A stretch of 64,000 bases of DNA, from contig NZ_QNRR01000009.1 in the NCBI RefSeq assembly GCF_003315205.1, positions 124,001-188,000 of the forward strand, in the 5' to 3' direction. Source of the stretch: Roseimicrobium gellanilyticum (GTDB lineage Bacteria; Verrucomicrobiota; Verrucomicrobiia; Verrucomicrobiales; Verrucomicrobiaceae). Every line of letters begins with the position of its first letter. Position 1 is the first letter of the stretch. This document shows, piece after piece, positions 11,350-63,274 of the stretch. A program made the position numbers and the translations under genes. Below the pieces are notes generated by a model. The model had not been told where the DNA came from, made no database searches, and worked only from the letters and a program-made list of their open reading frames with translations.

Positions 11350-11586
11350 GGTGGTCTGCACACTCCGTGTGCGGTCACCTCACGTGACGCAACCTTCAGT
11401 CAAGGAGTGGGGACATTCCTGTCCCCACTTGCTACGGCAATCCGGTAGATTGCTGCATTACCAACAGGTTGGATCCACAGAAGCAGCAGAGCTGCGAAGC
11501 AAACTGAAGGTGCCGACCTTGGAATGAGCTTCTGGATCCGGGATCCTATCACGCTCCAATGGGGGCAGGAATGCCCCACTCCTTGA
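11350..11586. repeat. Palindromic repeat element A (MITE/REP-like)
   Basis: The left end carries a 28-base module (11350-11377) with the hairpin CGCACACTCCGTGTGCG-type core. A second module at 11400-11427 contains the hairpin GGGGACATTCCTGTCCCC and is inverted at 11560-11586 as a 27-base arm whose complement holds GGGGCATTCCTGCCCC. Both modules also occur in element C at 18839-19088, in the same order, so A and C are copies of one family. The outer right arm present in C is missing here. It fills the gap between bioF and the esterase gene; a frame crossing it (11400-11747, minus) is spurious. Confidence 0.7.
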
Positions 11587-11623
11587 TACGAGGCTTTCAT
11601 CTCCAGGGCTGCGCGTTTGCTAT

Positions 11624-12553
11624 TCACTCCTTCGCCAACAACCCCTGCTCTCTCAGAAAGCTGATGCTCTTCTCCAGTGTCTTTGTATATGCAGGCTCCC
11701 GGTTGAAGTAACCGTGGGAATCCCCAGGAGAAACTTCCATCACACACGTTCCACCAAGCTCTTTCACCTTCGCCGCATATGCCTGGACTGTGTCGATGGG
11801 CACTGTGTTGTCTGCATCACCATGGAAGATGATGGTCGGCGGATGACCTGCCTTGAGATGATGATACGGACTCACCTTCAAGAGCTCCTCCTGCTTCGTG
11901 GCCGTCACTTCCGTGGCGCGGCGGAAGTCGAGCTTCACCGCGGGATTGAACAGCAACAAGGCCGCTGGCTTCGTGCTCACGCTCAGATCGTCCTTGGCAT
12001 CGTTCACTTCGTCCAACGTTGCGAGCGTGGCCGCGAGATGGCCACCAGCCGAACCACCACCGGCGGCGATCTTCGTGGGATCAATGCCCAGCTCCGTTGC
12101 ATGGCTGCGCACCCAGCGGAAGGCAGAGCGCGCGTCCTTCACGCAGTCTGGGATAGTCACACCGGATTGCGAGGTCAGGCGGTACTGCACGGAGATGGCC
12201 ACCATGCCGAGCTTCGCCAGCTCCGCACTCTGGCGTGAAAACGCCATCGGGCTGCCATTGCGCCAGCCACCGCCATGGTAGAAGACGACTGCACCACGTT
12301 TGTCCTCCGCCTTCCAACCCTCGGGTTTCCAGATCCAGAGTTCCAGCTTCGTGTCACCGGCTTCCTTGTAGACCTTCTTCTCCGTAGGCTGCGGTCCTTG
12401 GATCTTTGCTTGTTGCTGCGCCTGCGATTTGGCGTTGTTGGACTTGGGCTTTGGCTTGGCGGAGTCTTGCGCAGACACCATCAACGGCAGTGCAAGCGCG
12501 ACGGCAGAGACAACTCCAAAGGAGAAAGAAAAAAGGCGGGATGGAAGAACCAT
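11624..12553 (-). CDS. Secreted alpha/beta hydrolase (esterase/lipase, BD-FAE-like)
   Basis: With the start at 12551-12553 the protein has 309 residues and a signal peptide (MVLPSRLFSFSFGVV...MVSAQ). A 16-residue longer frame exists. Residues after a Lys/Pro/Gln-rich linker form an alpha/beta hydrolase: oxyanion block VVFYHGGGWRNGSP, nucleophile motif GGGSAGGHLA (Ser in GxSxG), acid HGDADNTVP and His in GDSHGY. The HGGG motif places it in the hormone-sensitive lipase/feruloyl or acetyl-xylan esterase-like group. A role in removing acyl groups from polysaccharides is plausible; substrate unknown. It is followed downstream only by repeat element A, and is 35 bases from the PagL-like gene upstream, so they may be co-transcribed. 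Confidence 0.88.
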   Translation of the reverse strand: MVLPSRLFSFSFGVVSAVALALPLMVSAQDSAKPKPKSNNAKSQAQQQAKIQGPQPTEKKVYKEAGDTKLELWIWKPEGWKAEDKRGAVVFYHGGGWRNGSPMAFSRQSAELAKLGMVAISVQYRLTSQSGVTIPDCVKDARSAFRWVRSHATELGIDPTKIAAGGGSAGGHLAATLATLDEVNDAKDDLSVSTKPAALLLFNPAVKLDFRRATEVTATKQEELLKVSPYHHLKAGHPPTIIFHGDADNTVPIDTVQAYAAKVKELGGTCVMEVSPGDSHGYFNREPAYTKTLEKSISFLREQGLLAKE

Positions 12554-12588
12554 GCCGCCTTTAACGCCGGGGTAACCCTGGTGTTTCG

Positions 12589-13224
12589 TTAGAAATGCCA
12601 TCCAAAGCTCAGCATCGGGCCGAGAGCGTCGATGCCGGGATTCACGTCGTCTTGATCCAAGTTGGAGACGTGCTGGTAATAGAGGCCGAGGGCCACGCTG
12701 CAGCGTTCCGCCACCATGAACCGGGCGCCGGAGTAAAGGAACCAGTTGAAGTTCAAGTCCTGGCCCTGGGCGCCTTCCACTTCATAGCCCTTGCTGTCCA
12801 TCCAGCCCACACCACCGCCGGCGGCGAAGAACAGGGAGAAATCGCGCGGGGCATTCCACCATTCCAGGGTGCCGGAACCGGCGATGCCGAAGTAGTAGTC
12901 CTCCGGACCTTCCACAATAGGCTCCAGCAGCAGCGAAATGCGGTGGCGGAAACCTAGGCGACCGCTGCCCACATTCCAGCCAAAAGCCTCCGGTGACTTC
13001 CACGTGATGATTTGCGGCAGGATGGTGTAGTCCAGCGGGGTGCCGTTGTGCCCCACGCGCCAGAGCGCCCCCGTTTCGAAATCGATTTCGTGATGCAGGA
13101 GCGGGTCGTAGGGTACCGGGGTGACGGTCGGCAGCGACTTATCCACCGGTCCGGCGACTGCAGCCGAGACCGCGAGACACAACGAAAGGAGCGGGGTCAG
13201 CACCAGCGGCTTGAGCTTCAGCAT
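12589..13224 (-). CDS. PagL-like lipid A 3-O-deacylase / outer-membrane beta-barrel (acyloxyacyl hydrolase family)
   Basis: The protein has 211 residues from the ATG at 13222-13224, with a signal peptide cleaved after AVAG. Alternating hydrophobic strands rich in Tyr/Trp/Phe and a C-terminal LSFGWHF ending in phenylalanine are typical of outer-membrane barrels. Near the C-terminus YYQHVSN followed by NPGIDALG matches the PagL active-site region (His and Ser in HxSN). PagL removes the 3-position acyl chain of lipid A in the outer membrane. Family membership is fairly clear, activity is inferred. It implies LPS-type lipid A in this organism. Confidence 0.75.
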   Translation of the reverse strand: MLKLKPLVLTPLLSLCLAVSAAVAGPVDKSLPTVTPVPYDPLLHHEIDFETGALWRVGHNGTPLDYTILPQIITWKSPEAFGWNVGSGRLGFRHRISLLLEPIVEGPEDYYFGIAGSGTLEWWNAPRDFSLFFAAGGGVGWMDSKGYEVEGAQGQDLNFNWFLYSGARFMVAERCSVALGLYYQHVSNLDQDDVNPGIDALGPMLSFGWHF

Positions 13225-13284
13225 GCGGCGATGGTAAACCGTTTTTCTCAAGTGGGAAGCGGAAACAAACAGGCGCTATACAGC

Positions 13285-13607
13285 GGGATGGTAGCCGAGT
13301 TTCTCCGAAACTCGTGGCACGTTGAGTCATCCGGGAGATGTTTTCCCTCTCCGGGACCTAGAGCGGTTTAAGTTACCGCGTGGCCATTTTCGCAACCCCA
13401 ACCGCGACCGGCGGTCGCAGCCACAGCCTGAGCCATCCGCCGCACCGCAGTAGCAGCCTTGGCTCTACTGTGGCTGCGACCGCTGGTCGCGGTGCGGCGA
13501 GTCACCTCTGATCCAAGGCCACGTCTTTGTTTAGAACGCCCTAGAGGAACGTTCCGTTCCGTATTCTCAGGGTACTTCGAGTTTCGGAGAAACCCGGCTA
13601 CCATCCC
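13285..13607. repeat. Palindromic repeat element B with nested inverted repeats
   Basis: Outer arms 13285-13320 and 13572-13607 are inverted copies (32 of 36 bases). Each contains the hairpin CGAGTTTCTCCGAAACTCG or its one-base variant with loop TCC. Inside lies a second inverted pair, 13401-13426 with 13468-13493 (25 of 26 bases, core GCGGTCGCAGCCACAG). No reading frame in it looks real. The element separates the PagL-like gene from trmL, both leftward, and its structure suggests a non-autonomous mobile element. Confidence 0.75.
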
Positions 13608-13610
13608 TTC

Positions 13611-14060
13611 TCACCCACGATTCTGCCGCAGCGCCTCATAGAGCACGATGCCCACAGAGGTGGCCAGATTCAGGCTGCGCGTGCCCTCCATGGGAATGCG
13701 CAGGCACGTGTCCTTGTTCGCCTCCAACAGGGACTCGGGCAACCCGCGCGTCTCCGGCCCAAACACCAGATAACACTCCGCCGGAAACGTCGCGTCCCAA
13801 TAGCTCTGCTGCGTCTTCGTGGTGAAATAAAACCACGGCACTCCAGTTGCGGCGCTCGCACGCAGATCCTCCAGCGTGTCCCACACGTGCACATCCACTT
13901 CCTTCCAATAGTCCAGCCCGGCGCGCTTCAACTGCCGATCATCAATGCTGAAGCCCAGCGGCTTGATGAGATGCAGCCTCGCGCCCGTCGCCAGACACAG
14001 CCGCCCCACCGCTCCGGTGTTGTGCGGGATCTCAGGCTGGTAGAGGACGATGTGGAGCAT
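13611..14060 (-). CDS. trmL: tRNA (cytidine/uridine-34-2'-O)-methyltransferase TrmL
   Basis: This 149-residue SPOUT-class enzyme methylates the wobble ribose of tRNA-Leu isoacceptors using S-adenosylmethionine. It starts MLHIVLYQPEIPHNTGAVGR, the exact family N-terminus; the reading frame extends 14 residues upstream through a terminator hairpin, which I reject. Conserved SPOUT motifs follow: VPWFYFTTKT, YLVFGPETRGLPESLL and RSLNLATSVGIVLYEALRQ, which form the trefoil-knot SAM site. The start codon touches the T tract of the upstream terminator at 14061-14095, leaving no room for a ribosome-binding site that is separate from it. Confidence 0.93.
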   Translation of the reverse strand: MLHIVLYQPEIPHNTGAVGRLCLATGARLHLIKPLGFSIDDRQLKRAGLDYWKEVDVHVWDTLEDLRASAATGVPWFYFTTKTQQSYWDATFPAECYLVFGPETRGLPESLLEANKDTCLRIPMEGTRSLNLATSVGIVLYEALRQNRG

Positions 14061-14095
14061 AAAAAAAATGCGAGAGTCGTGGTCGACTCTCGCAT
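14061..14095 (-). terminator. Rho-independent terminator of the GDSL hydrolase gene, abutting the trmL start
   Basis: A perfect 12-bp stem (14068-14079 with 14084-14095, ATGCGAGAGTCG) with a 4-base loop is followed on the minus strand by seven or eight T. The next base is the A of the trmL start codon. Confidence 0.9.
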
Positions 14096-14128
14096 GGATC
14101 AATTCAAGCCCGGATATGAGCCAAAAGG

Positions 14129-15568
14129 CTAGGCTGCCTTCTTCGCCTCCGCGGGCTTCGCGGCCGGTTGCTGCGCCGCCTTGGCAGGAGCCGCAGGACG
14201 CGGCGTGGGCATGATCTCCACCTTGAGTTCCTTCACCTTGTTGATCTGGTAGATCTCCGCCTCGTACTTCGCGGCGAGGTCATCCAGCTCCTTGCGCTTC
14301 GTCTGGAACTCGGTCTGCCACGCATCATACGCCACCTTGTCCGATTCACGCTTGTTGAACATGCCCTTCTGCTTGCCCCACAGGTTGCGCATCGGGCGCA
14401 CGGCTTCGTCATTCCGCTTCTTGTTGAGCGCCACGACCTTCAGGGACTGCTGATACGTGGGGGAATCGGGATCCTCCTCCACCTCGGCATGCACGGAGAG
14501 CGCACGCTCATCCCAGGTGCCCACCAGCTTGCCATTGATGTGCAGATCATAGCGGCCGCTGATGAGACCAGAAGCCACATAGGACTCCTGCGAGGCAGTG
14601 TGTCCCGCTTTGGTGAGCTTCATGCCGAGTGGTGCCTCAGCCTGCTGCACCCACGGGAGCGCCTTCGGCTTCACGGTGTAGCTCACGGAGCGGGTGGGAT
14701 TGCCCTTCACCTCCGAGACCACGGCGGGATTGATGGGCTGCCACTGGCCATTCACCACACGCACACCGGCACTCAAGATGGGCCCGGCTTCACCGGTCTG
14801 CTTCAGAAGCGTATACGCCATGATGAAATTGCCATCCGGTCCGGGATGGATGGCATCCTGGATGAGCGTGAAGTTCGGGTCGAAGCGACGCTGCTGCGCG
14901 GTGAACAGGTTCAGCGGTCCAAAGAGATCCACGAACTGCAGGTTGCGCTGCCAGGCCGTTTCCTGCAGCCACTTGCCATAGTAAGCGAGCACGGCGTTGT
15001 AGCCAGTAACCACCCGGCCTTTCGCATACTCCGGTTTCTCCTTGATGCGGACGTCCCACGCCTGGTGGTCGAACATGGTGGGGCTCATCACAATCACACG
15101 GCAGTTGATGGCCTTGAGGCGATCCAGCAGCTCGCTCATGTCCTTCGCGTAGGTGTCGAAGGTGGGCTTGTCGAAATCCTTGTAGCTGCCGTCGTTCATG
15201 CCCAGCAGCACCGTGGCCACGGTCGGCTTGAAGGCGGCGATGTCTTCGTCGAAGCGGTTCAGCACATCCCTGGCGCGGTCGCCACTCACACCCGCGTTAC
15301 GGAACGCGAGGCGCATGTTCGGGTAGCGGGTGTAAAAATAGTTTTCCACGTACTGCGTGTAGAGACACGCATGGGTGATGGAGTCGCCCACGAAGATGAA
15401 ACGATCGCCATCCTTCAATCCAAGACCCGCAGGGGTGGCAGGTACGGCGGGCTTTTTCGCTGGAGCGGCGGAAGGTGAGGGGGCAGCGAGTGACCGGCCC
15501 TCCTGGGCAGTGACCGGATGCGCGAGCAGCGCCGCCGTGGCCAGGGTGAGAAGGAATGAGCGTTTCAT
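14129..15568 (-). CDS. Secreted SGNH/GDSL-family hydrolase
   Basis: This 479-residue protein has a signal peptide (MKRSFLLTLATAALLAHPVTAQ) and a Pro/Ala linker. The SGNH domain lies at about residues 50-270: block I IFVGDSITHACLY (catalytic Ser in GDSIT), block II RNAGVSGDRARD, block III LLGMNDGSY and block V DAIHPGPDGNF (catalytic Asp and His). It is probably a carbohydrate esterase or lipase acting outside the cytoplasm. Residues 270-400 look like a beta-sandwich accessory domain, and the C-terminus is Lys/Ala/Pro-rich. A strong terminator follows 34 bases after the stop. Confidence 0.9.
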   Translation of the reverse strand: MKRSFLLTLATAALLAHPVTAQEGRSLAAPSPSAAPAKKPAVPATPAGLGLKDGDRFIFVGDSITHACLYTQYVENYFYTRYPNMRLAFRNAGVSGDRARDVLNRFDEDIAAFKPTVATVLLGMNDGSYKDFDKPTFDTYAKDMSELLDRLKAINCRVIVMSPTMFDHQAWDVRIKEKPEYAKGRVVTGYNAVLAYYGKWLQETAWQRNLQFVDLFGPLNLFTAQQRRFDPNFTLIQDAIHPGPDGNFIMAYTLLKQTGEAGPILSAGVRVVNGQWQPINPAVVSEVKGNPTRSVSYTVKPKALPWVQQAEAPLGMKLTKAGHTASQESYVASGLISGRYDLHINGKLVGTWDERALSVHAEVEEDPDSPTYQQSLKVVALNKKRNDEAVRPMRNLWGKQKGMFNKRESDKVAYDAWQTEFQTKRKELDDLAAKYEAEIYQINKVKELKVEIMPTPRPAAPAKAAQQPAAKPAEAKKAA

Positions 15569-15611
15569 GGCAAGGATGGTATCGGGTGGAAAAACGGTGG
15601 TGGCTGGGTGC

Positions 15612-15704
15612 CTATTTGCGCCTCGACACCACCACTACCAGCACGAGGCCGAGGACGGTCGCGCCGATGATGACGAGTTCAGTGAAGCCGATGGAAGAGA
15701 TCAT
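15612..15704 (-). CDS. Membrane microprotein (30 residues)
   Basis: ATG at 15702-15704 gives MISSIGFTELVIIGATVLGL and a short basic tail ending VSRRK. It is a single transmembrane helix with an inside-positive end. It lies 22 bases downstream of a similar 45-residue microprotein. Both have an IGxF-TE(L/M)xVI entry, a VLV-rich helix and a Lys/Arg tail, which suggests a tandem duplication. The TE-(L)-V-I entry recalls the start of TatA/TatE proteins but the amphipathic helix is absent. Too short for confident gene calling; the conserved pairing supports it. Confidence 0.5.
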   Translation of the reverse strand: MISSIGFTELVIIGATVLGLVLVVVVSRRK

Positions 15705-15726
15705 ATCGTTGAAGGGCAGAGCTGTG

Positions 15727-15864
15727 TCATTTCTGCTTTTTTGACAGATACACCACCAGGAAGATGATTCCACCCAGCACCAGCACAGGACCCCCCACCA
15801 GCGCCGCGATGACGAGCATCTCGGTCGTGCCAAAGGGCCCGATGCCGGCGAGGGGCGGAGTCAT
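15727..15864 (-). CDS. Membrane microprotein (45 residues)
   Basis: ATG at 15862-15864. The sequence runs MTPPLAGIGPFGTTEMLVIA, then a Val/Leu/Gly/Ile transmembrane helix and the basic tail YLSKKQK. It lies just downstream (15 bases) of the DUF1080 gene and 22 bases upstream of the 30-residue paralogue, all leftward, so the three could be one operon. Function unknown. The start GTTEMLVI is TatA-like, but no amphipathic helix follows. Confidence 0.55.
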   Translation of the reverse strand: MTPPLAGIGPFGTTEMLVIAALVGGPVLVLGGIIFLVVYLSKKQK

Positions 15865-15879
15865 GACAGACAGGACAAA

Positions 15880-16539
15880 CTACAGGTTCTTGATCGCGAG
15901 ATTGCGGAATTCCACGTGATCGTTGTGGCCGCAGATGATGAGATGGCCGCTGGCATTCAGCATGCCAGGATGCTCGTGGCCATCAATGGGCTTCAGCTTG
16001 CTGAGGTCGGCATCCACAATTGTCACGCCATTGAGGATGACTTTGATCTTGGTGCCTTGGGCGACGATTTCCTGCGTGTTCCACTCGCCGATGGGCTTCA
16101 TGCCTTCGTGCTTGGCGGGCAGCACGCCGTAAATGCTGCCGTGGTGTTGCCATTCCTTGATCTTCTCATGCTTGGGCACGTTGGCATCGATGAGCTGGAT
16201 CTCCATGCCATTGAGGTGCGGCGCGGGAGCCTTGCCATCCTTGGGCAGATCACAGCGGATGCCCATGCCGTTGTTCGCACCCTGGCTGAGCTTGAAGTCG
16301 AACTTCAGGTGGAAGTCGCCATAGGCCTTCTCGCTGATGAGATGCTTGCCCTGCGGCGTACAGATGAGGACGCCATCCTTCACCTCGTAGCCCTTGGTGG
16401 TGTCCGCCTTCCAGCCCGCGAAGGACTTGCCGTCGAAGAGCGGAGTGAAGCCCTCATCTGCGGCACGGGAGACCGTGGTGGAAAGGGCGAGGGTGCAAAG
16501 ACCGAGGGCGGCGGAGAGGAAGAGGCGGCGCGAGTACAT
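15880..16539 (-). CDS. Secreted DUF1080 protein (3-keto-disaccharide hydrolase family)
   Basis: The protein has 219 residues from the ATG at 16537-16539, with signal peptide MYSRRLFLSAALGLCTLALS... ending SRA. A long frame upstream runs through the AEC gene on the same strand and is not coding there. The domain opens GFTPLFDGKSFAGWK and contains DFHLKFDFKLSQGANNGMGI, WQHHGSIYGV, GEWNTQEIVAQGTKIKVILN and ends EFRNLAIKNL, the complete concanavalin-like DUF1080 pattern. Some family members hydrolyse 3-keto-glucosides. It is exceptionally expanded in Planctomycetes and Verrucomicrobia. Probably periplasmic; substrate unknown. Confidence 0.9.
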   Translation of the reverse strand: MYSRRLFLSAALGLCTLALSTTVSRAADEGFTPLFDGKSFAGWKADTTKGYEVKDGVLICTPQGKHLISEKAYGDFHLKFDFKLSQGANNGMGIRCDLPKDGKAPAPHLNGMEIQLIDANVPKHEKIKEWQHHGSIYGVLPAKHEGMKPIGEWNTQEIVAQGTKIKVILNGVTIVDADLSKLKPIDGHEHPGMLNASGHLIICGHNDHVEFRNLAIKNL

Positions 16540-16637
16540 GATAGGGAAGGACAACACCAACGCGGCTCGACACCAGGGTGTTGCGAGGAGATGTGCAGCG
16601 GCCCGTTTCATGGGCATTCCCCGACTCGTTTCGGGCA

Positions 16638-17579
16638 CTATTGTCTCACAGCCAGCCACTTCATGGCAAGCCCGATGGCGAAGGGGGCGGTGAAGATGCT
16701 CACCACGGTGGTGGCCACAATCACCAGCACCGCCGTGGCCGGGTGCCCGCCGTAGTGCCGCGCCAGTACCACGGTGAAGACCGCCGCCGGCATGGCCGCC
16801 TGCACGCAGAGTACCTGCTTCATCTCCGCGCTCAGGGGCATCCAGAGCCCCACCGCAATGAACAGGAAGGGCAGCAAAAACATGCGCAGCACCGAGGTGG
16901 CCACGGCCACATTCAGCTTGAAACGCTCTTCGCCGATGAGGTCCATGATGGTGCCGCCAATGAGGATGACGCACAACGGAATGGCACATGCCCCGAGCTG
17001 GCCGAGCAGCACGTGAATCATTTCCGGCACGTGCGGCCCCACCCCGGCGTAGTGCAGGACCAGTGAGGCCAGGATGCTGATGACGGGCGGATTGATGGCG
17101 TGCCTCCACGGCGCCTTGCTGAAGCCCGTGAGCAGACCCACGCCCACGGTCCACATGGCAAGTTCCACGCCCAGCGTGTAGGTGAAGAGCACCCCGATAA
17201 GCGGCTTCCCAAAGAGCGCCTCCGTCACGGGGATGGCCACAAAGCCGTAATTCTGCAGGCCGGTGCAGAGGGCGAAGGTGCGCGCTCCCTCCCCTTTCTT
17301 GATGCCAATCAGTGGCGTGACCAGGTAGCAGAGCCCCATGGACGCGGCCACCATCACGAAGCCCAGAGTGGCATTCAGCAGGACCTGCCCACCGTTGTTC
17401 AGCGCCGGATTCCCCACGATGCGCTCAAAGGCGAGGCATGGAAAAAGCACCCGCACCGCGAGGTTCATGATGCCGAAGTCCGCCTCGCGTGGCATCCACC
17501 CAATCCGCCGGGCACCCGCGCCCACCATCATGGTGAGGTAGACAGGAAGCGTGGCGAGGAGGATGGTAGAATAGTTCAT
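16638..17579 (-). CDS. AEC-family (auxin efflux carrier) transporter
   Basis: The protein has 313 residues from the ATG at 17577-17579 (MNYSTILLATLPVYLTMMVG); the longer frame adds 34 residues without membrane character. Ten hydrophobic segments are spread over the whole length, with the AEC pattern MNLAVRVLFPCLAFERI in the first half, the gap between TM5 and TM6, and ACAIPLCVILIGGTIMD followed by QAAMPAAVFTVVLARHYGG in the second. AEC proteins export or import organic anions such as malate. It is located in the inner membrane; substrate unknown. It lies 98 bases upstream of the DUF1080 gene on the same strand. Confidence 0.88.
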   Translation of the reverse strand: MNYSTILLATLPVYLTMMVGAGARRIGWMPREADFGIMNLAVRVLFPCLAFERIVGNPALNNGGQVLLNATLGFVMVAASMGLCYLVTPLIGIKKGEGARTFALCTGLQNYGFVAIPVTEALFGKPLIGVLFTYTLGVELAMWTVGVGLLTGFSKAPWRHAINPPVISILASLVLHYAGVGPHVPEMIHVLLGQLGACAIPLCVILIGGTIMDLIGEERFKLNVAVATSVLRMFLLPFLFIAVGLWMPLSAEMKQVLCVQAAMPAAVFTVVLARHYGGHPATAVLVIVATTVVSIFTAPFAIGLAMKWLAVRQ

Positions 17580-17733
17580 GAACGATAGCGCCCCCTCTTG
17601 GTCAACGGGACCGGCCTTCCGGTCAATGAATTCGCTGCAGTTGCTGCGGCGGCACGTCCTTTGCGAACGTGTCATGCACATCCATTTGACGGACCGCTCC
17701 GCCGCCCTTTAACGCAGGGAAGAGAATCACACC

Positions 17734-18837
17734 ATGCTCGTAGACGGAAAGCCCTACCGCACCGTCTGGCTCAAGCCGGACGAACCCCACATCGTGCAAA
17801 TCATCGACCAGCGGAAGCTGCCGTGGAAGTTCGAGGTCGTGGACCTGCGCACGGTGGATGAGGTAGCACGGGCCATCAAGGATATGTGGGTGCGTGGCGC
17901 GGGCTGCATCGCCGCCACTGCGGCCTATGGCATGTGGCTCGCCTCGCTGGAGGCCATGCGTGACCCCGACTACAAGCTGGCCACCAAGCTCGGTGCCCGC
18001 AAGCTCCTGCAGACTCGCCCCACGGCGGTGAACCTCATGTGGGCCATCGAACGCCAGCTCGCCGCCCTCTCGAAGGCGCGCACGGACATCCAGGCCCTGG
18101 AGATGACGCGCGAAACCGCCGAATCCATTGCCGATGAAGATGTGTCTGCCTGTCGGGCGATTGGCGAGCATGGACTCACGCTGATTCAGAGCATCTACCG
18201 TGGCAAAAAGCCCGGCGAGCCGGTGAACATCCTCACGCACTGCAATGCCGGCTGGCTGGCCTTTGTGGACATCGGCAGCGCCACCGCGCCCATCTACGCC
18301 GCGAAGAAGGCTGGCATTCCCATCCACGTATGGGTGGATGAAACCCGCCCGCGTAACCAGGGCTCACGCCTCACCGCCTGGGAACTCTCGCAGGAGGGCA
18401 TCCCCCACACCATCATCCCCGACAACACGGGCGGCCACCTCATGCAGCATGAGAAGGTGGACATGGTCATCACCGGCGCGGACCGCATCACGCGCAAGGG
18501 CGATGTGGCGAACAAGATCGGCACCTACCTGAAAGCACTGGCCGCCAAGGACAATGGCGTGCCCTTCTACGTGGCCGCCCCCGGCAGCACCATTGACTGG
18601 GAGATGAACGATGGCCTGCTGGAGGTCCCGATTGAGCAGCGTGGTGAAGAAGAGGTCGCCTTGATCGAAGGCATGACCAGCGCCGGCAAGCTGGAGACCG
18701 TACGTCTCTTTCCGCAGGCGAGTCCGGCTGCGAACTACGGCTTCGACGTCACCCCTGCTCGCCACATCACCGGCATCATCACCGAACGTGGGGTGGTGCG
18801 TGCGGATGAAGCAGCGCTGGATCGGGCGTTTTCGTGA
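17734..18837 (+). CDS. mtnA: S-methyl-5-thioribose-1-phosphate isomerase
   Basis: This 367-residue enzyme of the methionine salvage pathway converts methylthioribose-1-phosphate to methylthioribulose-1-phosphate. The family motifs are complete: MWVRGAGCIAATAAYGM near residue 50, LTHCNAGWLAFVDIG with the catalytic cysteine, VDETRPRNQGSRLTAWEL, ITGADRITRKGDVANKIGTY with the catalytic aspartate, and VPFYVAAPGSTID. It belongs to the eIF-2B alpha-like fold. No other salvage gene is nearby. Repeat element C begins two bases past its stop and may act as a terminator. Confidence 0.95.
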   Translation: MLVDGKPYRTVWLKPDEPHIVQIIDQRKLPWKFEVVDLRTVDEVARAIKDMWVRGAGCIAATAAYGMWLASLEAMRDPDYKLATKLGARKLLQTRPTAVNLMWAIERQLAALSKARTDIQALEMTRETAESIADEDVSACRAIGEHGLTLIQSIYRGKKPGEPVNILTHCNAGWLAFVDIGSATAPIYAAKKAGIPIHVWVDETRPRNQGSRLTAWELSQEGIPHTIIPDNTGGHLMQHEKVDMVITGADRITRKGDVANKIGTYLKALAAKDNGVPFYVAAPGSTIDWEMNDGLLEVPIEQRGEEEVALIEGMTSAGKLETVRLFPQASPAANYGFDVTPARHITGIITERGVVRADEAALDRAFS

Positions 18838-18838
18838 G

Positions 18839-19088
18839 TGGTGGTCCGCACACTCCGTGTGCGGTCAGAGGTCTGGAGCAAAGCACACCCCTGCGGGTGA
18901 AAGCCTCACACTCAAGGAAGGAGGATATTCTTCCGAATTGGGTATAGCTAGCCGGTGGAGTGGTTCCGAATCGAGGAAGCCCTCGACGCAAAGAAATGGG
19001 GGCAAGAATGCCCCCACTCCTTGAAGATTCTGTCCCCGTCACGGGAGGTAGCAAATCGATGACCGTACACGGAATGGGCGGACCACCA
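18839..19088. repeat. Palindromic repeat element C (same family as element A)
   Basis: Outer inverted arms 18839-18867 and 19060-19088 match at 26 of 29 bases (core GGTCCGCACACTCCGTGTGC). Inner inverted arms lie at 18912-18934 and 18997-19024; the right one holds the hairpin of GGGGGCA with loop TTCT. It exactly fills the space between the convergent mtnA and msrB genes, leaving only 1 and 7 bases. No gene lies in it. Confidence 0.75.
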
Positions 19089-19095
19089 TGGGCCG

Positions 19096-19704
19096 CTACT
19101 CCCCGGCCTCTTTCTTCACCTCAGCCTTCTTCTTCTCCACCTCGGGTGAGCTCAGCTCCTCGAGCTTCGGTGGGGTACCACCCTTCGGCACGAAGACCAG
19201 GGCAGCGCCATTGATGCAGAAGCGGCGGTCTGTAGGGGTGTTGTAGCCTTCCTTTTCAAAGACGTGGCCCAGGTGGGCTTCGCAACGCTTGCACACGGTT
19301 TCCACGCGGCGCATGCCGTGTGAGTTGTCCACGCGCTCGAGCACGTTGTTCGCCTTCGAGGAATCATAGAAGGAGGGCCAGCCGCAGCCGGAGTGGAACT
19401 TCTCCTTGCTGGTGAAGAGCTCGCCACCGCAGCAGACGCAGTAGTAGGTGCCTTCGCCTTCCTTTTCGAATTTCTCATACGCAGCACCATGGGCGCGCTC
19501 CGTGCCCGCGCGGCGGGTGATGGCGAACTGCTCGGGCGTCAGCTTCTTGCGCCATTCCTCATCGGTCTTGGTGACTTTTCCGGTTTCCATCTTCGTGGTA
19601 GAGGCTTCAGGGGTTTTGGGTGTCGCGGGCTTGTCCTCGGCAAGGGCCAGGACCACGGGCAGCGCAGAGGCCAGCGGCAGGAGAAAGATCAGCGGCGTTT
19701 TCAT
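19096..19704 (-). CDS. msrB: Exported peptide-methionine (R)-S-oxide reductase
   Basis: This 202-residue protein reduces the R-epimer of methionine sulfoxide in oxidised proteins. Residues 1-22 are a signal peptide (MKTPLIFLLPLASALPVVLALA), so it is a periplasmic repair enzyme, unlike the cytosolic MsrB of many bacteria. The MsrB core includes zinc cysteines in YYCVCCG and CKRCEAHLGHVF, the block FHSGCGWPSFY, and the catalytic cysteine in RRFCINGAALVFVP. The C-terminal 25 residues are Glu/Lys-rich and helical. No MsrA is adjacent. Confidence 0.95.
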   Translation of the reverse strand: MKTPLIFLLPLASALPVVLALAEDKPATPKTPEASTTKMETGKVTKTDEEWRKKLTPEQFAITRRAGTERAHGAAYEKFEKEGEGTYYCVCCGGELFTSKEKFHSGCGWPSFYDSSKANNVLERVDNSHGMRRVETVCKRCEAHLGHVFEKEGYNTPTDRRFCINGAALVFVPKGGTPPKLEELSSPEVEKKKAEVKKEAGE

Positions 19705-19761
19705 GGATGGGTGATCGAACTACGGACAGTCTGGCACAATATTAGGCACGACAGGTATCTG

Positions 19762-19790
19762 AGTGTCGATCCATCATCAGGTTCGACACT
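19762..19790. promoter_or_regulatory. Inverted repeat upstream of msrB, possible operator
   Basis: An 8-base perfect inverted repeat AGTGTCGA / TCGACACT with a 13-base spacer lies 58 bases upstream of the msrB start and between it and the convergent end of the propeller gene. No T tract follows on either strand. Function is a guess. Confidence 0.25.
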
Positions 19791-19866
19791 AGGATACGCA
19801 AGCTCAGGGACCTTAGATTCAAGAGGCCCCACCCAAATTCGCCATCGTCATCACCCTCCTAAATCC

Positions 19867-30765: not shown

Positions 30766-30943
30766 AATCAAACGCGGAGACGCAGAGGAACTTCGGAGAC
30801 TGAGATGACTGTGCATAGCGCATCGTGGGACTCGAAACCAACGGGAAAGGGTCTGTGGACACCGCCCAGAGAGCTGCTCTTCACAAGTAGCTGTATTTGC
30901 ATTTCTCCGAAGTTCCTCTGCGTCTCTGTGTCTCTGTGTTGAA
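30766..30943. repeat. Inverted-repeat element E (ACACAGAG type)
   Basis: Arms 30773-30797 and 30904-30928 match inversely at 24 of 25 bases (core CGCAGAGGAACTTCGGAGA). The right arm continues with CTCTGTGTCTCTGTGTTGAA, a motif shared with the ends of element F. The 106 bases between the arms show no gene. It lies between the tsf terminator and the WYL regulator, upstream of the latter's promoter region. Confidence 0.65.
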
Positions 30944-34796: not shown

Positions 34797-34966
34797 TTCA
34801 ACACAGAGGCACAGAGACACAAAGGCACGAAGGGGAATGGAAAATGAGAGCCCCTGGGGGACTGAGCCCAAAGGGGAGCGATCCAGGCGCACGAGGGAGA
34901 CGGGCAACTTTAGCCCACTCCCTTCTTCAGCTCTGTGTTTTCGTGTCTCTGTGTCTTCGTGTTGAA
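34797..34966. repeat. Inverted-repeat element F (ACACAGAG type)
   Basis: Arms 34797-34832 and 34931-34966 are inverted copies at 28 of 36 bases, starting with TTCAACAC and rich in ACACAGAG/GACAC. The ends match the right end of element E. The 98 bases between carry no gene. It fills the space between the convergent glnB and bifunctional nuclease genes. Confidence 0.65.
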
Positions 34967-43073: not shown

Positions 43074-43082
43074 GAGGGTGTC

Positions 43083-53336: not shown

Positions 53337-54235
53337 TGAGATGGGTAGGCTGGCCCCGCAGTTTCATCGAGTGGTGCGGAGAATGCCGGTATGCATTGAT
53401 ATCGAACATGGATTTCATCTCCTATCCGCAGCGAACCTTCATGCCGTTGCCGGAAGCATTCGTCGAAGGCATCGGCCGTGATGATCGCTTTCTTCTGGCA
53501 TTCCCCAGGTCCGGATCCCGCTGGATGCTTGTCATGCTCACCGGTCTGATTGAAGAGGCTCACGACCTTCCGCGCAGCAACTTCTTCTCCCGCCCTGCCG
53601 ATGACCTTGGCCAGGGAGAAAGGAAATCTACACTTTTGGATTCTCACGGAAGATGCGTTCTGCCGAATGCCCACGGGAATCCACGCGAGAGTTCTGCTCT
53701 CCTTGCCATTGGCGAGACGCCGATCTTCCGGTCGCACCATCTCGCGGAAATCATCACACGGGCAAACGGACCCATCGTCTATATCGTGAGGCCACCAGCA
53801 CCGGCGCTCTACTCGTACTACCACTTCGCGCGGGGAGAAGGGCATGTGCCGGCGAGCCTCGGCATCGAGGAGTTTTGCACGATACATTTACCACTGTGGA
53901 AAGACCATGTGGCCACCATGCTGCAGCTGCACCGCATGACGCCGGGCCGGGTGCTCTTTCTCACCTACCGGGATCCGGGACCCTTTGAGCGGTTTCAGCT
54001 CGAGGCTGCCACGGCGCATTTCGGAATTCCAGCCTCCCCGGAGGCGGTGGAGCGCGCGCTCGCCGGCCTGGCGGGATTCCTGCCTCGGCTCAGCGCCCGC
54101 CCGGCCATGGCCCACCCGCGCGGGGTGAATGACGAACTCGTTCGCGAGCTCCCACGGGACCTGCTGCACTGGATCCACTCGGAAGCGGGTGAACTTTACC
54201 AGGAAGCGATGATGGCCGAGCGGTCCCGCGCCTGA
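53336..54235 (+). CDS. Sulfotransferase-like protein
   Basis: The protein has 299 residues from the ATG at 53336, which overlaps the cysC stop in TAATG; MDFISYPQ at 53408 is another start. PAPS 5'-loop LLAFPRSGSRWMLVMLTGLI (about residues 52-71) and 3'-loop IVYIVRPPAPALYSYYHFAR (about 145-164) fit the sulfotransferase superfamily. The rest has FLTYRDPGPFERFQLEAATA and GVNDELVRELP. It is a second sulfotransferase of the cassette and lacks the C-terminal module of the first. Substrate unknown. Confidence 0.78.
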   Translation: MRWVGWPRSFIEWCGECRYALISNMDFISYPQRTFMPLPEAFVEGIGRDDRFLLAFPRSGSRWMLVMLTGLIEEAHDLPRSNFFSRPADDLGQGERKSTLLDSHGRCVLPNAHGNPRESSALLAIGETPIFRSHHLAEIITRANGPIVYIVRPPAPALYSYYHFARGEGHVPASLGIEEFCTIHLPLWKDHVATMLQLHRMTPGRVLFLTYRDPGPFERFQLEAATAHFGIPASPEAVERALAGLAGFLPRLSARPAMAHPRGVNDELVRELPRDLLHWIHSEAGELYQEAMMAERSRA

Positions 54236-54325
54236 GCCAGAGGTTCCCCCACCGAAAGAGGGCTCGCCTCCGGGCCGTTGTTTCCCTGGCCATCCAATGG
54301 TACCATGGCTGCCCGTCTGTTGCTC

Positions 54326-55732: not shown

Positions 55733-55840
55733 TACAAGCCTGGGGATACCCCGGCCAGGCTGGCCTAGCGTTGCTGCGGAATTGAGTTTCCGTTTCCTCC
55801 AGCAGTGCGATGCTGGAGAAACCGCCTGTGCACTGCCCGC

Positions 55841-57385: not shown

Positions 57386-57390
57386 GGCAA

Positions 57391-57418
57391 AACGCACTGT
57401 TCAAAAGTTCAGTGCGTA
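57391..57418. promoter_or_regulatory. Palindrome just upstream of uvrA, possible operator
   Basis: ACGCACTG (57392-57399) and CAGTGCGT (57410-57417) form an 8-bp perfect inverted repeat around TTCAAAAGTT, 60 bases upstream of the uvrA start. No T tract follows, so it is not a good terminator. Its left half includes CTGTTC. It may be an operator for DNA-damage control. Confidence 0.4.
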
Positions 57419-57476
57419 CGGTTGCCAGCGCGCGGCGAACTGGTAAGATTCGCCCACGACTTTCCCATTTTCCCCG

Positions 57477-60400
57477 ATGTCTGCCCGCCCCCCGAAGTCC
57501 GCTGCCCCTGTCACTGACAACCACATCCACATCTGCGGGGTACGGCAGAACAACCTCAAGGGGTTCGACCTCGATCTGCCCCTCGGGAAACTGAATGTCA
57601 TCACGGGACCGAGCGGTTCGGGGAAGTCCTCCCTGGCCTTCGACACCATCTACGCGGAAGGCCAGCGGCGGTATGTGGAAACATTCTCCCCGTACACGCG
57701 GCAGTTCTTCGAGCGGATGGACAAGCCGGAGGTCGATGCCATTCACGGCATTCCCCCGGCCATCGCCATTGAGCAGGTGAACAACATCCGCTCCACGCGC
57801 TCCACGGTGGGGACCATCACGGAGATCAATGACTACCTGAAGATGCTTTTCCCCCGCCTGGCGGAAGGCTCGTGCCCGGAGTGCGGCAGGCCCGTGCGAC
57901 CGGAGTCACCGGAAAGCATTCAGCAGACTTTGCTCAAGGAGCATGCGGGCAAGACGGCGCTGATACTCTTCGGCGTGGCGGTACCGGCGAAGTCGAGCGT
58001 GGAGGACTTCTTCGCCTTCCTGCAGAGTCAGGGCTATGTGCGCGTGCTGCTCTATGGCGACGTGGTTCGCACGGACGAGCCCGCATCGTTTGGCAAACGC
58101 AAGCTGCCTGCCGTGGTGCCGGTGGTGCAGGATCGTGTGACGCTGGAACCCGCGAGCCGGATGCGTCTGACCGAAGCCATCGAAGCTGCGCTGCGCTACG
58201 GCAAGGGCACGATGAGCGTGGCCATCCTCGGCAAAGGCGGGAATGGATCTCCTTCCCAACAACAGCACCTGAATTTTTCCACAGACTGGAGGTGCGCCGA
58301 TTGCGATCTCAAGCTGCCCGAACCCACGCCGGGGCTTTTCAGCTTCAACAATCCCATCGGCGCCTGCCCTGCGTGCCGTGGTTTTGGAAAGACTCTGGGC
58401 ATCGACTGGCGCAAGGCGATTCCGGATGAGTCGCTCAGCATCCGTGATGGCCTGGTGCGTCCCTTCGCCGGTGAAACCTACAGCGAGTGCCAGACGGATC
58501 TGGAACGCTGCGCGCGAGCACGGAAGGTGGATTTGAATCTGCCCTTTGATCAATTCAGCGAGGAAGATCGCAACTGGCTCATCGAAGGCGACAATGCAGA
58601 TCCCGAAGAAGCGTACAAGACCGGCGAGTGGTATGGCATTCGCGGCTTCTTCAAGTGGCAGGAATCCCGCGCGTACAAGATGCACGTGCGTGTGTTCCTC
58701 AGCCGCTACCGCGCATACACGGAATGCAGCGAGTGCAATGGCGGCCGCCTGAAGAAGGAGGCGTATTATTATCGCGTCGCCGGCAGGACGATCGCGGACT
58801 TCTGGAAGATGCCCGTAAATGTGCTGCTGCCCACGGTGAGAAATCTCGATGTCGTGGAAGGCGACCGGGCAGCCAGGATGCTGCGCGATGAGATCGCCTC
58901 ACGCCTGAGCTACATGGAGCGCGCCGGCCTTGGCTATCTGGATCTGGATCGCCAGACGCGCACGCTGAGCGGGGGTGAACTGCAACGCGTTAATCTCACC
59001 ACGTGTCTCGGCGCCTCGCTGGTGAACACACTCTTCGTACTGGATGAACCGAGCATCGGTCTGCATCCACGCGACATCGGCAAGCTCATCGGCGTGATGG
59101 AAGGCCTGCGCGATAAGGGCAACACCTTGCTCGTCGTGGAGCACGAAGAGGCCGTGATGCGTGCGGCGGACAACCTCGTGGAAATCGGACCCGGCCGCGG
59201 TGAGAAGGGTGGAGAACTCGTCTTCCACGGTCCACTCTCCTCACTCAAGAAAACCCATGGCACGCTCACGGGCGACTATCTGTTCGGCAGGAAGAGCATT
59301 CCCGTTCCGAAGAAGCGTCGTACACCGGCGCGTGGGCAGGCCATCAAGATCGTCAACGCCCAGCAGCACAATCTCAAAAGGCTCAGCGTGGAGATCCCAC
59401 TCGGCGTCCTGTGCTGTGTGACTGGTGTGAGCGGCAGCGGCAAGAGCACGCTGGTCCATGACGTGCTGTATCGCAACCTGATGCGCCAGCGTGGCGAAAG
59501 CATCGAAGAAGAACCGGGCCGCGTGAAGTCCGTCGACGGAGGCGACAAGGTCGGCACGGTGGTGATGGTGGACCAGAGCCCGCTCGCACGCACGCCTCGC
59601 AGCACACCAGCCGTGTACGTGGGCGCGTTTGACGCGATTCGCCAGCTCTTCGCGGAAACCGAGGATGCGAAATCGGAGGGCATCACGCCGGGCTTTTTCA
59701 GCTTCAACAGCGGTGATGGCCGATGCGAACGATGCTGGGGGAATGGGTATGAGAAGATCGAGATGCAGTTCCTCAGCGATCTGTATGTGACCTGTCCGGA
59801 GTGCGAGGGCAAACGCTACCAGCCGCACGCCCTGCGCATCCTGCTGCAGGGAAAGAACATCAACGAGGTGCTGGGCATGACCATCGATGAGGCCGCGGAA
59901 TTCTTCGCCGGCATCGGGTCGAAGAAGGCAGCGAACGTGCTGGTCTCCCTGCGACTCCTGCAGGAAGCCGGGCTTGGATATCTGAGGCTCGGCCAGCCGC
60001 TCAACACGCTGAGTGGTGGCGAGGCCCAGCGCCTGAAGCTCATCGGCCATCTGCTGGAACCGTCATCGACGGACAAGAAGACACTCTTCCTCCTGGATGA
60101 ACCGACCACAGGGTTGCATTTCGATGACATCGCGCTGCTCATCAAGCTTCTGCAACGACTCACCGACGAAGGTCACAGCATCCTGGTGATCGAGCACAAC
60201 ACCGAGGTCATCAAATGCGCGGACTGGATCATCGATCTCGGACCTGAAGCAGGCTCGGCTGGTGGGGATCTGGTGATTGCCGGTACTCCAGAGCAGGTGG
60301 CAGCATCTGAGAAGTCGTGGACCGGCAAGTACTTGCGTGACGCCTTGAATGGCGATGCCAGATCCACCTATGAAATCGCGGATGCCAACAGCGGTGGTGT

Positions 60401-63083
60401 GGTGCGTGATGATGAAGCCGCCTACGGCAAGGGACTCGCCCTCTCGAAGAACGGGATCTCCATTCGTGGCGCACGTGAGCACAACCTCAAAAACTTCAAT
60501 CTCGACATCCCACGCGATCAGCTCGTGGTGGTAACAGGACTGAGCGGCAGCGGCAAATCGTCACTCGCCTTCGATCTGATCTTTGCGGAAGGTCAGCGCC
60601 GTTTCCTGGACAGCATGTCTGTCTTTGCGCGCACCTTTGTGGAGCAGATGGAGAAGCCGGATGTGGACCTCATCGCCGGTGTCCCCCCGACCGTTGCCAT
60701 CGAGCAACGCGTCTCCCGCGGCAGCGGCAAGAGCACCGTGGCCACGGTCACGGAGGTGTATCATTTCCTGAGACTCCTCTTCGCCAAGTGCGGCACGCAG
60801 TATTGTCCGAACTGCAGCATCCCCGTGGAGAAGCAAAGCATCAGTTCGGTGGTAAAGGCCGTGGAGGATCTCGCGAAGAAATCCCCGCTGCACATCATGG
60901 CCCCGCTGATCAAGGCGCGAAAGGGCTTCCACACCGAGGTGGCTGAGTTCGCTCGCAAGCAAGGCATCCAGACGCTGCTCGTGGACGGCGACTTCCGCGA
61001 TACGGCGAACTTCAAGCGCCTGGAACGCTTCAAGGAGCACACCATCGACGCAGTGTTGGGCAAGTTTGAAAGGGGTGCTCGCGCTCTTGCGTTGCGGCCC
61101 TTGATTGAAAAGGCGCTGAAGCTCGGCAAGGGCATGATCAAGGTGCGCCTGCAGGACAAGTCCATCCGCGTGCTCAACACCGAGATGAGCTGCCCGCACT
61201 GCGGCATGAGCTTCGAAGAACTCGACCCGCGCCTCTTCTCCTTCAACAGCCCTCATGGCTGGTGCAAGTCCTGCCGCGGCTTCGGCGTCGTGACCGAAGG
61301 CGCTTCATCGAATGAAGAGCGGCGTGACGATGTCTCCCAGCTCGAAGTGGAGATGGAAGAAGAACGCCGCTTCGACAGCGCGGAGCACGGCGTCGCGCAA
61401 TGTCCCTCCTGCCATGGTTCTCGCATGAATCCCGTCGCGCGCGCGGTGCAAGTGCAGGGCATCCATCTCGAACAGATCGCCGAGCTGTCCGCGGAACGTG
61501 CGTCCGATGTGGTGACGAAGCTGAAGTTCACCGGACTGCAGGCAGAGATTTCGCGCGACATCATGAAGGAGATCACCCAGCGCCTGCTCTTCATGCAGGA
61601 GGTTGGCCTGGGATATCTCCAACTTAACCGCAGCGCTGACACTTTGAGCGGTGGTGAGGCGCAGCGCATCCGTCTTGCCTCCCAGCTTGGCTCGAATCTG
61701 CGCGGCGTGCTCTATGTCTTGGATGAGCCCACCATCGGTCTGCATCCGCGCGACAACGAGCGCCTGCTCAACACCCTCTCCGCACTGCGTGACAAGGGCA
61801 ACTCGCTGCTCGTAGTGGAACACGACGAGGACACGATGCGCCGCGCGGATACCATCATCGACCTCGGCCCCGGCGCCGGACGCTTTGGAGGTCAGGTCGT
61901 GGCTGTGGGAAATCTCGATGAGATCTCCAAGCACGAGGATTCAGTCACCGGCAGAGCATTGCGCGAAGTCATGCAGCATCCTCTGCACGGCAGACGCCGT
62001 CCACTGCCGAAGAAGAACGACGCCAGTGGTTGGCTCACCCTGAAAGGCGCTACGGCGAACAACCTGCGCAAAGTCGACGTGAGCATTCCCTTCGGCGGAC
62101 TCACCGTCATCACCGGCGTGAGCGGCAGTGGCAAGAGCTCGCTCATGCGCGCCGTGCTGCATCCCGCCGTGAAGGAGGAGCTGGCCAATGCGAAGAAGAA
62201 AGGCCGCAAGACAAAGAACGGCGAGAAGAAGATGTGGACCTCCGTGCACGGCGTGGATCAGATCGCGGCGGTGTATGAGGTGGATCAGTCACCCATTGGA
62301 AAAACTTCACGCTCCTGTCCCGCGACCTACGTCGGTGTGCTGGATGACATCCGCAAGCTCTTCGCCCAGGTCCCGGCGGCGCGTGCGCGGGGTTATGAAG
62401 CGGGACGTTTCTCCTTCAACACCGAAGGCGGCCGCTGTGAGAACTGCGGCGGCAATGGTGAGGTGAAGGTGGAGATGAACTTCCTGCCAACCACACGCGT
62501 GCATTGCGAAGTGTGCCACGGTCTTCGTTTCAACAGCGCCACGCTCGAAATCGAGTACAATGGCAAACACATCGGCGATGTGTTGCGCATGAACATCGCG
62601 GAGGCGGCGGACTTCTTCGCGAGCATCCCGCGCATCGCCCGTCCGCTCGCGTTGCTGGCGGAGACGGGGTTGGGATATTTGCAGCTTGGCCAGCCAAGTC
62701 CCACGCTAAGTGGTGGCGAGGCTCAGCGACTCAAGTTGGTCACGGAACTCAACGCCGGCCAGGGCCGCACGGTCACGGAGAAGATGCGTGGTCTGAAAAC
62801 CACCAAGCGGAATCTTTACCTGATCGAGGAACCGACCATCGGCCTGCATCACCATGATGTCGTCCGATTGATCGAGATTCTCCACCGACTGGTGAACGAA
62901 GGTCACACCGTGATCGTCATCGAGCACCATCTCGATGTCATGGCGGAAGCAGATTACCTGATCGACATCGGCCCCGAAGCCGGCGAACACGGCGGCAAGG
63001 TCGTGGCCACAGGGACACCGGAGCAGGTGGCGAAGGTGAAGGGGAGCAGGACGGGGGTGTTCTTGAAGGCGTTGCTCAAATAG
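57477..63083 (+). CDS. uvrA: Excinuclease ABC subunit UvrA, double-length tandem fusion
   Basis: This 1868-residue protein is two UvrA-like halves in one chain. First half (1-980) and second half (985-1868) each have two ABC nucleotide sites. Walker A near residues 43 (GPSGSGKSS), 651 (GVSGSGKST), 1020 (GLSGSGKSS) and 1546 (GVSGSGKSS); signatures LSGGE near 497, 844, 1389 and 1743; Walker B near 519 (LFVLDEPSIGLH), 870, 1411 and 1779. The last Walker B reads LYLIEEPTIGLH, with Glu for the Asp. Zinc cysteines occur in CADCDLKLPEPTPGLFSFNN, CERCWGNGYEKIEM, CPHCGMSFEELDPRLFSFNS and CENCGGNGEVKVEM. UvrA finds bulky DNA damage for nucleotide excision repair; double-length UvrA is known from chlamydiae. 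Normal UvrA is approx. 940 residues. Confidence 0.96.
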   Translation: MSARPPKSAAPVTDNHIHICGVRQNNLKGFDLDLPLGKLNVITGPSGSGKSSLAFDTIYAEGQRRYVETFSPYTRQFFERMDKPEVDAIHGIPPAIAIEQVNNIRSTRSTVGTITEINDYLKMLFPRLAEGSCPECGRPVRPESPESIQQTLLKEHAGKTALILFGVAVPAKSSVEDFFAFLQSQGYVRVLLYGDVVRTDEPASFGKRKLPAVVPVVQDRVTLEPASRMRLTEAIEAALRYGKGTMSVAILGKGGNGSPSQQQHLNFSTDWRCADCDLKLPEPTPGLFSFNNPIGACPACRGFGKTLGIDWRKAIPDESLSIRDGLVRPFAGETYSECQTDLERCARARKVDLNLPFDQFSEEDRNWLIEGDNADPEEAYKTGEWYGIRGFFKWQESRAYKMHVRVFLSRYRAYTECSECNGGRLKKEAYYYRVAGRTIADFWKMPVNVLLPTVRNLDVVEGDRAARMLRDEIASRLSYMERAGLGYLDLDRQTRTLSGGELQRVNLTTCLGASLVNTLFVLDEPSIGLHPRDIGKLIGVMEGLRDKGNTLLVVEHEEAVMRAADNLVEIGPGRGEKGGELVFHGPLSSLKKTHGTLTGDYLFGRKSIPVPKKRRTPARGQAIKIVNAQQHNLKRLSVEIPLGVLCCVTGVSGSGKSTLVHDVLYRNLMRQRGESIEEEPGRVKSVDGGDKVGTVVMVDQSPLARTPRSTPAVYVGAFDAIRQLFAETEDAKSEGITPGFFSFNSGDGRCERCWGNGYEKIEMQFLSDLYVTCPECEGKRYQPHALRILLQGKNINEVLGMTIDEAAEFFAGIGSKKAANVLVSLRLLQEAGLGYLRLGQPLNTLSGGEAQRLKLIGHLLEPSSTDKKTLFLLDEPTTGLHFDDIALLIKLLQRLTDEGHSILVIEHNTEVIKCADWIIDLGPEAGSAGGDLVIAGTPEQVAASEKSWTGKYLRDALNGDARSTYEIADANSGGVVRDDEAAYGKGLALSKNGISIRGAREHNLKNFNLDIPRDQLVVVTGLSGSGKSSLAFDLIFAEGQRRFLDSMSVFARTFVEQMEKPDVDLIAGVPPTVAIEQRVSRGSGKSTVATVTEVYHFLRLLFAKCGTQYCPNCSIPVEKQSISSVVKAVEDLAKKSPLHIMAPLIKARKGFHTEVAEFARKQGIQTLLVDGDFRDTANFKRLERFKEHTIDAVLGKFERGARALALRPLIEKALKLGKGMIKVRLQDKSIRVLNTEMSCPHCGMSFEELDPRLFSFNSPHGWCKSCRGFGVVTEGASSNEERRDDVSQLEVEMEEERRFDSAEHGVAQCPSCHGSRMNPVARAVQVQGIHLEQIAELSAERASDVVTKLKFTGLQAEISRDIMKEITQRLLFMQEVGLGYLQLNRSADTLSGGEAQRIRLASQLGSNLRGVLYVLDEPTIGLHPRDNERLLNTLSALRDKGNSLLVVEHDEDTMRRADTIIDLGPGAGRFGGQVVAVGNLDEISKHEDSVTGRALREVMQHPLHGRRRPLPKKNDASGWLTLKGATANNLRKVDVSIPFGGLTVITGVSGSGKSSLMRAVLHPAVKEELANAKKKGRKTKNGEKKMWTSVHGVDQIAAVYEVDQSPIGKTSRSCPATYVGVLDDIRKLFAQVPAARARGYEAGRFSFNTEGGRCENCGGNGEVKVEMNFLPTTRVHCEVCHGLRFNSATLEIEYNGKHIGDVLRMNIAEAADFFASIPRIARPLALLAETGLGYLQLGQPSPTLSGGEAQRLKLVTELNAGQGRTVTEKMRGLKTTKRNLYLIEEPTIGLHHHDVVRLIEILHRLVNEGHTVIVIEHHLDVMAEADYLIDIGPEAGEHGGKVVATGTPEQVAKVKGSRTGVFLKALLK

Positions 63084-63274
63084 GAGGTTAGGGCTTCCGC
63101 CCTGACAGCGGACGTTGGACCTTCCGGTCCGACGTTGATGGCGTGCCTTGCCCACATGATCACCCGATCAATGCAGTGGCAAGAACGGTCCCAGGGAGCG
63201 TGCGCGGTGGGTGGCCTGCAGCTGTCGGGTCGGAAGACCCAACGCCCACAGTCAGGGCAGAAGCCCTAACCTCC
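63083..63274. repeat. Palindromic repeat element D with paired hairpin arms
   Basis: Arms 63083-63133 and 63224-63274 are inverted copies at 43 of 51 bases. Each arm holds two small hairpins with loop TTCC (or TTCT): GGGC-TTCC-GCCC and GGACC-TTCC-GGTCC on the left; the right arm read inversely has GGGC-TTCT-GCCC and GGGTC-TTCC-GACCC. The two stem changes in the last hairpin compensate. The element starts in the uvrA stop codon and lies between convergent genes. Confidence 0.78.

Follow-up and report, generated by a model that had tools for sequence, protein, structure and literature searches.

The window analysed here is a stretch of 64,000 nucleotides from the genome of Roseimicrobium gellanilyticum (C9:124001-188000 of G000, an assembly of 7.93 Mb in 32 contigs, each designated by "C" and a number). 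It carries four kinds of short hairpin element, A, B, C and D, which are REP/REPIN-type elements (repetitive extragenic palindromes, REPs, and REP doublets forming hairpins, REPINs) of several families: short 5'-tagged hairpins, mostly in inverted pairs. Probably these elements are passengers of REP-associated tyrosine transposases (RAYTs) that are encoded elsewhere in the genome and would recognise them through the tag, the existence of a stem and certain loop bases. Within family D the stem varies but the loop hardly does, an indication that loop sequence counts for more than stem sequence in recognition by the enzyme.

The hairpins reported in a preliminary description of the window were all found again, at or near their reported positions. 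Pattern searches of the whole genome yielded 59 matches for A, 69 for B, 10 for C and 115 for D, against 3, 0, 0 and 3, respectively, with reversed patterns as the control (up to three mismatches were allowed in each of the A, B and C patterns, hence some of the weak matches are due to chance). The 5' tag is GGAG in the first hairpins of D, CAAGGA in most A copies and GTGG or GTAG in B and C; B and C thus have the GT[AG]G foot, which A and the first hairpins of D lack. A scan of the window with Rfam at the gathering threshold returned no match.

Family D and its changing stems

In the window, D consists of two inverted doublets. The left doublet on the plus strand comprises hairpin 1 (63087..63106, GGAG tag) and, 27 bp after it, hairpin 2 (63114..63133), both with the loop TTCC; the right doublet on the minus strand comprises hairpin 2 (63224..63243, loop TTCC) and hairpin 1 (63251..63270, GGAG tag, loop TTCT). 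The general form is GTTRGGNN[TYCN]NNCCYGAC (all consensus forms are written on the strand that has the pyrimidine-rich loop). A whole-genome search with the loop fixed as TTC gave 108 matches (12 in the reversed-pattern control), and the loop-blind search that gave the 115 matches mentioned above left the loop and two stem pairs free. Same-strand doublets with a spacing of 26 or 27 bp account for 84 of 100 hairpins listed out of the 108.

Pairing and loops were evaluated in 100 listed matches of the loop-blind 115, and in 98 of them every one of the three free stem positions is paired. Among these 98 the loop is TTCT (40), TTCC (38), TCCT (10), TCCC (7), TTCA (2) or TTCG (1), i.e., T-Y-C-N throughout, with T as base 1 and C as base 3. 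Over this loop the paired set shows seven five-base left arms (AGGCC, GGGTC, AGGCG, AGGGC, AGGCT, GGGCC and GGGCT), and the TTC-fixed search added two more, GGACT and GGACC. At the three free pairs, 18 of the 24 distinct D sequences show Watson-Crick pairing throughout; when the 3' halves were re-dealt in 2000 trials, the mean was 3.4 and the maximum 9. The third pair has a constant T.G mismatch, which is no independent result because the search pattern demands it. The idea of a near-constant loop on a changing stem is thereby borne out within D, but the stems are not unrelated, as had been proposed: they vary by compensatory change within one fixed frame, and TTCC, given as the D loop, is second to TTCT.

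In a genome of the same genus (G002), D is absent at both of two further syntenic intergenic sites; because the flanks have diverged at both, the junctions are inexact there and the target of insertion is not readable. At the position corresponding to the D element of the window, G002 (C1:7577006-7578873) carries a different sequence of about 1.9 kb and is too rearranged to be scored. Two other D-bounded stretches of the genome with gene-sized gaps gave no significant tblastn match when searched for RAYT relics. Directly before the D element of the window lies an open frame (57477-63083) whose 1868 aa include segments repeated internally and which we take to resemble a double-length UvrA.

Transposase genes and their flanking hairpins

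The PF01797 profile identified 13 genes for Y1 transposases in the genome, all above the curated cut-off. Hairpins in inverted orientation were found on both sides of 10 of them in a flank scan, which detected no such pair at C22:2634, C1:88241 and C1:698791; an eleventh pair is nevertheless present at C1:88241. The preliminary description had suggested looking for Y1/RAYT genes flanked by such hairpins, and they are indeed there. Inverted D doublets stand on both sides of the RAYT gene C8:354249-354968 with their tags outward, and B pairs stand on both sides of the RAYT gene C16:76293, and D goes with the former RAYT and B with the latter. The hairpins at C5:320685 and C1:88241 are preceded by CAAGGAG (CAGGGAG in one copy upstream of C5:320685), but their stems and loops are unlike those of A.

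The D-type RAYT had matches in 56 of 59 genomes of the same family (the own genome included). Inverted hairpins surrounded the gene at 16 of 30 loci that were fetched, again including the own one, compared with 0, 2, 0 and 3 in four shuffles in which upstream and downstream flanks were mismatched. Thirteen of these 16 loci carry GGAG (10) or GT[AG]G (3) within 12 bases 5' of both hairpin copies on one strand (the background per 12-mer in the own genome is 5% for GGAG and 8% for GT[AG]G); L191 and L213 do not fit, nor does L186, in which one copy of the main hairpin is tagged. Of the 13 tagged loci, 12 have TTCC, TCC, TTC or TCT as the loop of the tagged strand, over many stems, and L207 has GCC.

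As for a mechanism, A-D would be non-autonomous and moved by RAYT-type Y1 (HUH) transposases encoded elsewhere in the same genome. Such a RAYT would recognise the folded single strand through three features, namely the 5' tag (GGAG for D, CAAGGA for most A, GTGG or GTAG for B and C), the existence of a stem, and loop bases (T-Y-C for D and related elements), whereas the stem sequence would matter only loosely; with tag and loop kept, compensatory changes could then accumulate in the stem. Whereas the hairpins, their copy numbers, tags, covariation and position around genes, and their presence or absence between two genomes are observed directly, we infer that these enzymes bind, cleave and mobilise the hairpins and read their loops.

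The closest known system is that of REPs, REPINs and RAYTs (TnpAREP) with its GTAG super-family (PMC3733652, PMC3116915, PMC2817692), which shares short 5'-tagged hairpins, inverted pairs, many copies and a flanked Y1 gene in the own genome. Within it, REP sub-families with alternative complementary stem residues have been described, and O. terrae, a member of the Verrucomicrobia, is highly enriched in GTAG repeats (both PMC3733652). B and C fit the GTAG super-family (GTAG or GTGG), whereas the first D hairpins have GGAG and A mostly has CAAGGA; D units also differ from this system in being tandem doublets with 26-27 bp spacing. A second comparison is with the group-3 REPtrons of Stenotrophomonas and Marinomonas, which likewise have a perfect stem and a loop of 3-4 bases (PMC8266576). 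In vitro and by SELEX (systematic evolution of ligands by exponential enrichment), two group-3 TnpAREPs were reported to depend on certain loop bases and to tolerate the stem fairly well: stem changes that preserved pairing cost less than loop changes, mismatches in the stem were harmful, and the GTAG motif mattered for cleavage by the Sm enzyme and was largely dispensable for that by the Mb enzyme (PMC8266576). The loops of these REPtrons are GCT and TTTA, unlike the TYC loops here, and the enzymes here are not assigned to group 3. The D pattern is what an enzyme of this kind would leave, and by analogy the D RAYT may behave in the same way. The statement of the preliminary description that no named family has a constant loop on variable stems can be kept for the details, although not for the principle, since REPs with essential loop bases and fairly tolerant stems have been demonstrated in vitro (PMC8266576).

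Five of the 13 Y1 genes encode small TnpAs with the motif Y--NQ--HH, the mark of TnpAY1 subclass 1.2 (PMC6006769), which they also resemble in their size of about 150 aa and in the divergence of the copies (the other four are 36-40% identical to the first). They match IS200 models and solved IS200/IS605 transposases (one falls just below the NCBIfam cut-off) and share the transposase family with IS200/IS605; however, IS200/IS605 copies are near-identical with hairpins in direct orientation, whereas the five genes here are divergent and all (L001-L005) are flanked by inverted hairpins. Subclass 1.2 is listed with "no" for REPs in Table 1 of PMC6006769, whose automatic scan used a GTAG or GTGG foot, some subclasses being inspected manually. 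Among the best 80 of 570 relatives (L104-L183; in titled records the closest are mostly Verrucomicrobiota), 69 have the full Y--NQ--HH motif. Of the 80, 77 were usable (three were dropped because of short flanks), and, in contrast to that listing, 45 of the 77 loci, from several phyla, have inverted flanking hairpins, with 0, 2, 0, 0 and 0 after swapping the flanks. Matches in direct orientation, which near-palindromes permit, also occur in 27 of the 77 loci (the swapped control covers inverted matches only). Dispersed copies of these hairpins are modest in number: seven exact copies of the inner hairpin of C9:47982 and nine of the C2:51317 hairpin, gene-flanking ones included, were counted in 1.2 Mb of the genome; the hairpins of the other three small TnpAs, whose genes lie outside this sample, had 0-1 copies in it with up to 2 mismatches.

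REPs, REPINs, the flanking of RAYT genes and stem sub-families are known; the GGAG tags, and likewise the inverted hairpins at subclass-1.2-like genes, are possibly new. The open-licence papers that we consulted describe neither REPs with a GGAG tag nor REPs at genes of subclass 1.2, and "GGAG" does not occur in the main text of PMC6006769 or PMC3733652. We tentatively suggest, as a possibility with somewhat less than an even chance, that REPs tagged with GGAG form a branch of their own in this bacterial family, read by their RAYT through tag and TYC loop alone, and that subclass 1.2 TnpAs are a second widespread REP-bearing group near IS200. If so, a single enzyme reading tag and TYC could act on stems without a fixed limit to their variety, and the diversification of REP stems would be explained. 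The matter bears on the question of how a RAYT and its REP remain matched despite the divergence of REP sequences. D, with its roughly 115 copies, seven or more stems, single loop rule and single flanking transposase gene, offers a ready series for separating loop reading from stem reading, and inverted hairpins at subclass 1.2 genes would widen the range in which REP-bearing enzymes are sought.

Alternative readings of the loop

Several observations weigh against tag and loop recognition by a RAYT as set out above. GGAG stands directly 5' of 11 of 20 sampled D hairpins, exclusively first hairpins of doublets (the other nine, second hairpins, have GTGGGC-like bases in front), and it precedes just 11 of the 30 best A matches. 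By the flank method, 14 of the 30 D-type RAYT loci have no inverted hairpin, none of the 13 Y1 genes is a partner for C, and the L008-type protein had no relevant sequence match among solved structures. Around the small TnpA gene C9:47982, a candidate partner of A, the A copies are arranged unlike B and D at their genes: two lie upstream in opposite orientations (47723, minus strand; 47777, plus strand) and one downstream with its tag towards the gene (48581, plus strand). Because the tags of the inverted A pair face the gene, and because another inverted hairpin, GCTCCC[TCC]GGGAGC, is close to this gene, A was not assigned to it. Finally, the loops common to relatives may be inherited and not selected.

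The likeliest of the alternatives agrees that A-D are REPs and disputes only the reading of the loop: the likeness of the A-D loops would be due to coincidence and common ancestry, with a real loop constraint in D only. It is in keeping with the different loops of other families in the genome and with the subclass-1.2 tree, in which loop classes track the proteins: 18 changes were required compared with a mean of 29.4 after shuffling, and none of 200 shuffles was as low (85 rows, 35 without a loop being uncounted; the five own loops were picked by eye). Against it, TYC loops recur in several RAYT clades with different stems and two kinds of tag; in a quick tree with weak deep forks, however, loci without detectable hairpins lie between these clades, and shared ancestry therefore stays an alternative to selection on the loop. 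On balance we regard it as plausible but doubt it.

The preliminary description had gone further and united A-D as one superfamily, defined by a (T/C)TCC loop and with a single recogniser for all of them. The loops of A-D in the window are mostly TCC-like, and among the cores of inverted-pair hairpins in 1.2 Mb of the genome, TCC in the loop is indeed over-represented about 2.8-fold, with 13 of 54 cores compared with 8.7% of genomic k-mers (the 54 cores are not 54 families, overlapping hairpins of one element being listed apart, and the 13 are not independent because three are D variants). Yet 41 of the 54 lack TCC, and other hairpin-pair families of the genome carry the loops GCC, CCT, TTTA, TTCA, CTTG, GAA and CTGCGC. 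The tags differ between the families, B and D flank different transposase genes, and the window itself has loops other than (T/C)TCC, as seen in the outer right hairpin of D (TTCT) and in the A copies at 18998-19015 (TTCT) and 1496-1513 (CTCT). A single loop-defined superfamily is thus very unlikely; constancy of the loop over variable stems applies to D and to related RAYT loci elsewhere, not to A, B, C and D together.

That the hairpins are bidirectional transcription terminators or stabilisers of mRNA 3' ends kept for that role, a role hypothesised for REPs in PMC3733652 and compatible with the position of most elements outside long open frames and of D apparently between convergent frames (as judged from open frames, without gene calling), is very improbable, since terminator-like sites (a G+C hairpin followed by a T-run) occur at the level of shuffled sequence in 11300-19120 (6 compared with 5.5, none of the six being an A-C hairpin and one overlapping the tag of the right A arm) and not at all in 62900-63500, and since it leaves the constant loops and the matching hairpins around transposase genes unexplained.

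Families A, B and C in the window

The forms of the other three families are GGGGRCA[YTCY]TGYCCCC for A, GTGGTCCGCMCAC[TCC]GTGTGCGG for B and GTAGCCGAGTTTC[TCC]GAAACTCG for C. CAAGGA precedes 20 of the 30 best A matches, as CAAGGAG in 10, CAAGGATC in 8 and CAAGGAA in 2. All four families form inverted pairs in the window, and one B and one A copy stand single, so that the inverted arrangement claimed for every element applies to most of them and not to the B copy at 11351..11376 (plus strand, GTGG tag, 3-base loop TCC), which has no inverted partner nearby among the B matches. Next to it is an A pair, with the left arm at 11401..11429 (plus strand; tag CAAGGAG, hairpin 11409-11426, loop TTCC) and the inverted right arm at 11561..11586 (hairpin 11561-11578), whose CAAGGAG tag is on the minus strand. 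The single A hairpin, at 1496..1513 on the minus strand (tag CAAGGATC, loop CTCT on the tagged strand), lies beyond the range of the preliminary description.

The C element extends from its left arm at 13291..13314 (plus strand, GTAG tag, loop TCC) to its right arm at 13578..13601 (minus strand), and nested within it is an unlike inverted hairpin pair, GCGACC..GGTCGC, at 13404..13490, a type that is also listed elsewhere in the sampled genome. At the corresponding site in G002 the inverted hairpin pair is kept, and the sequence between its arms has no detectable similarity. A B pair is formed by the left arm at 18841..18866 (plus strand) and a right arm with a degenerate stem at 19061..19086 (minus strand), and between them stands the A hairpin at 18998..19015 (minus strand), with its TTCT loop on the tagged strand; the B site in G002 contains A-type hairpins and no B match. 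Further hairpin-pair families (L088, L091-L093, L075 and L078) were noted that have GTAG tags and the loops GCC, GTCCCT and TCCA. The window also contains short CTCTGTGTCTCTGTGT-type repeats at 30916-30943 and 34931-34966, 4 kb apart.

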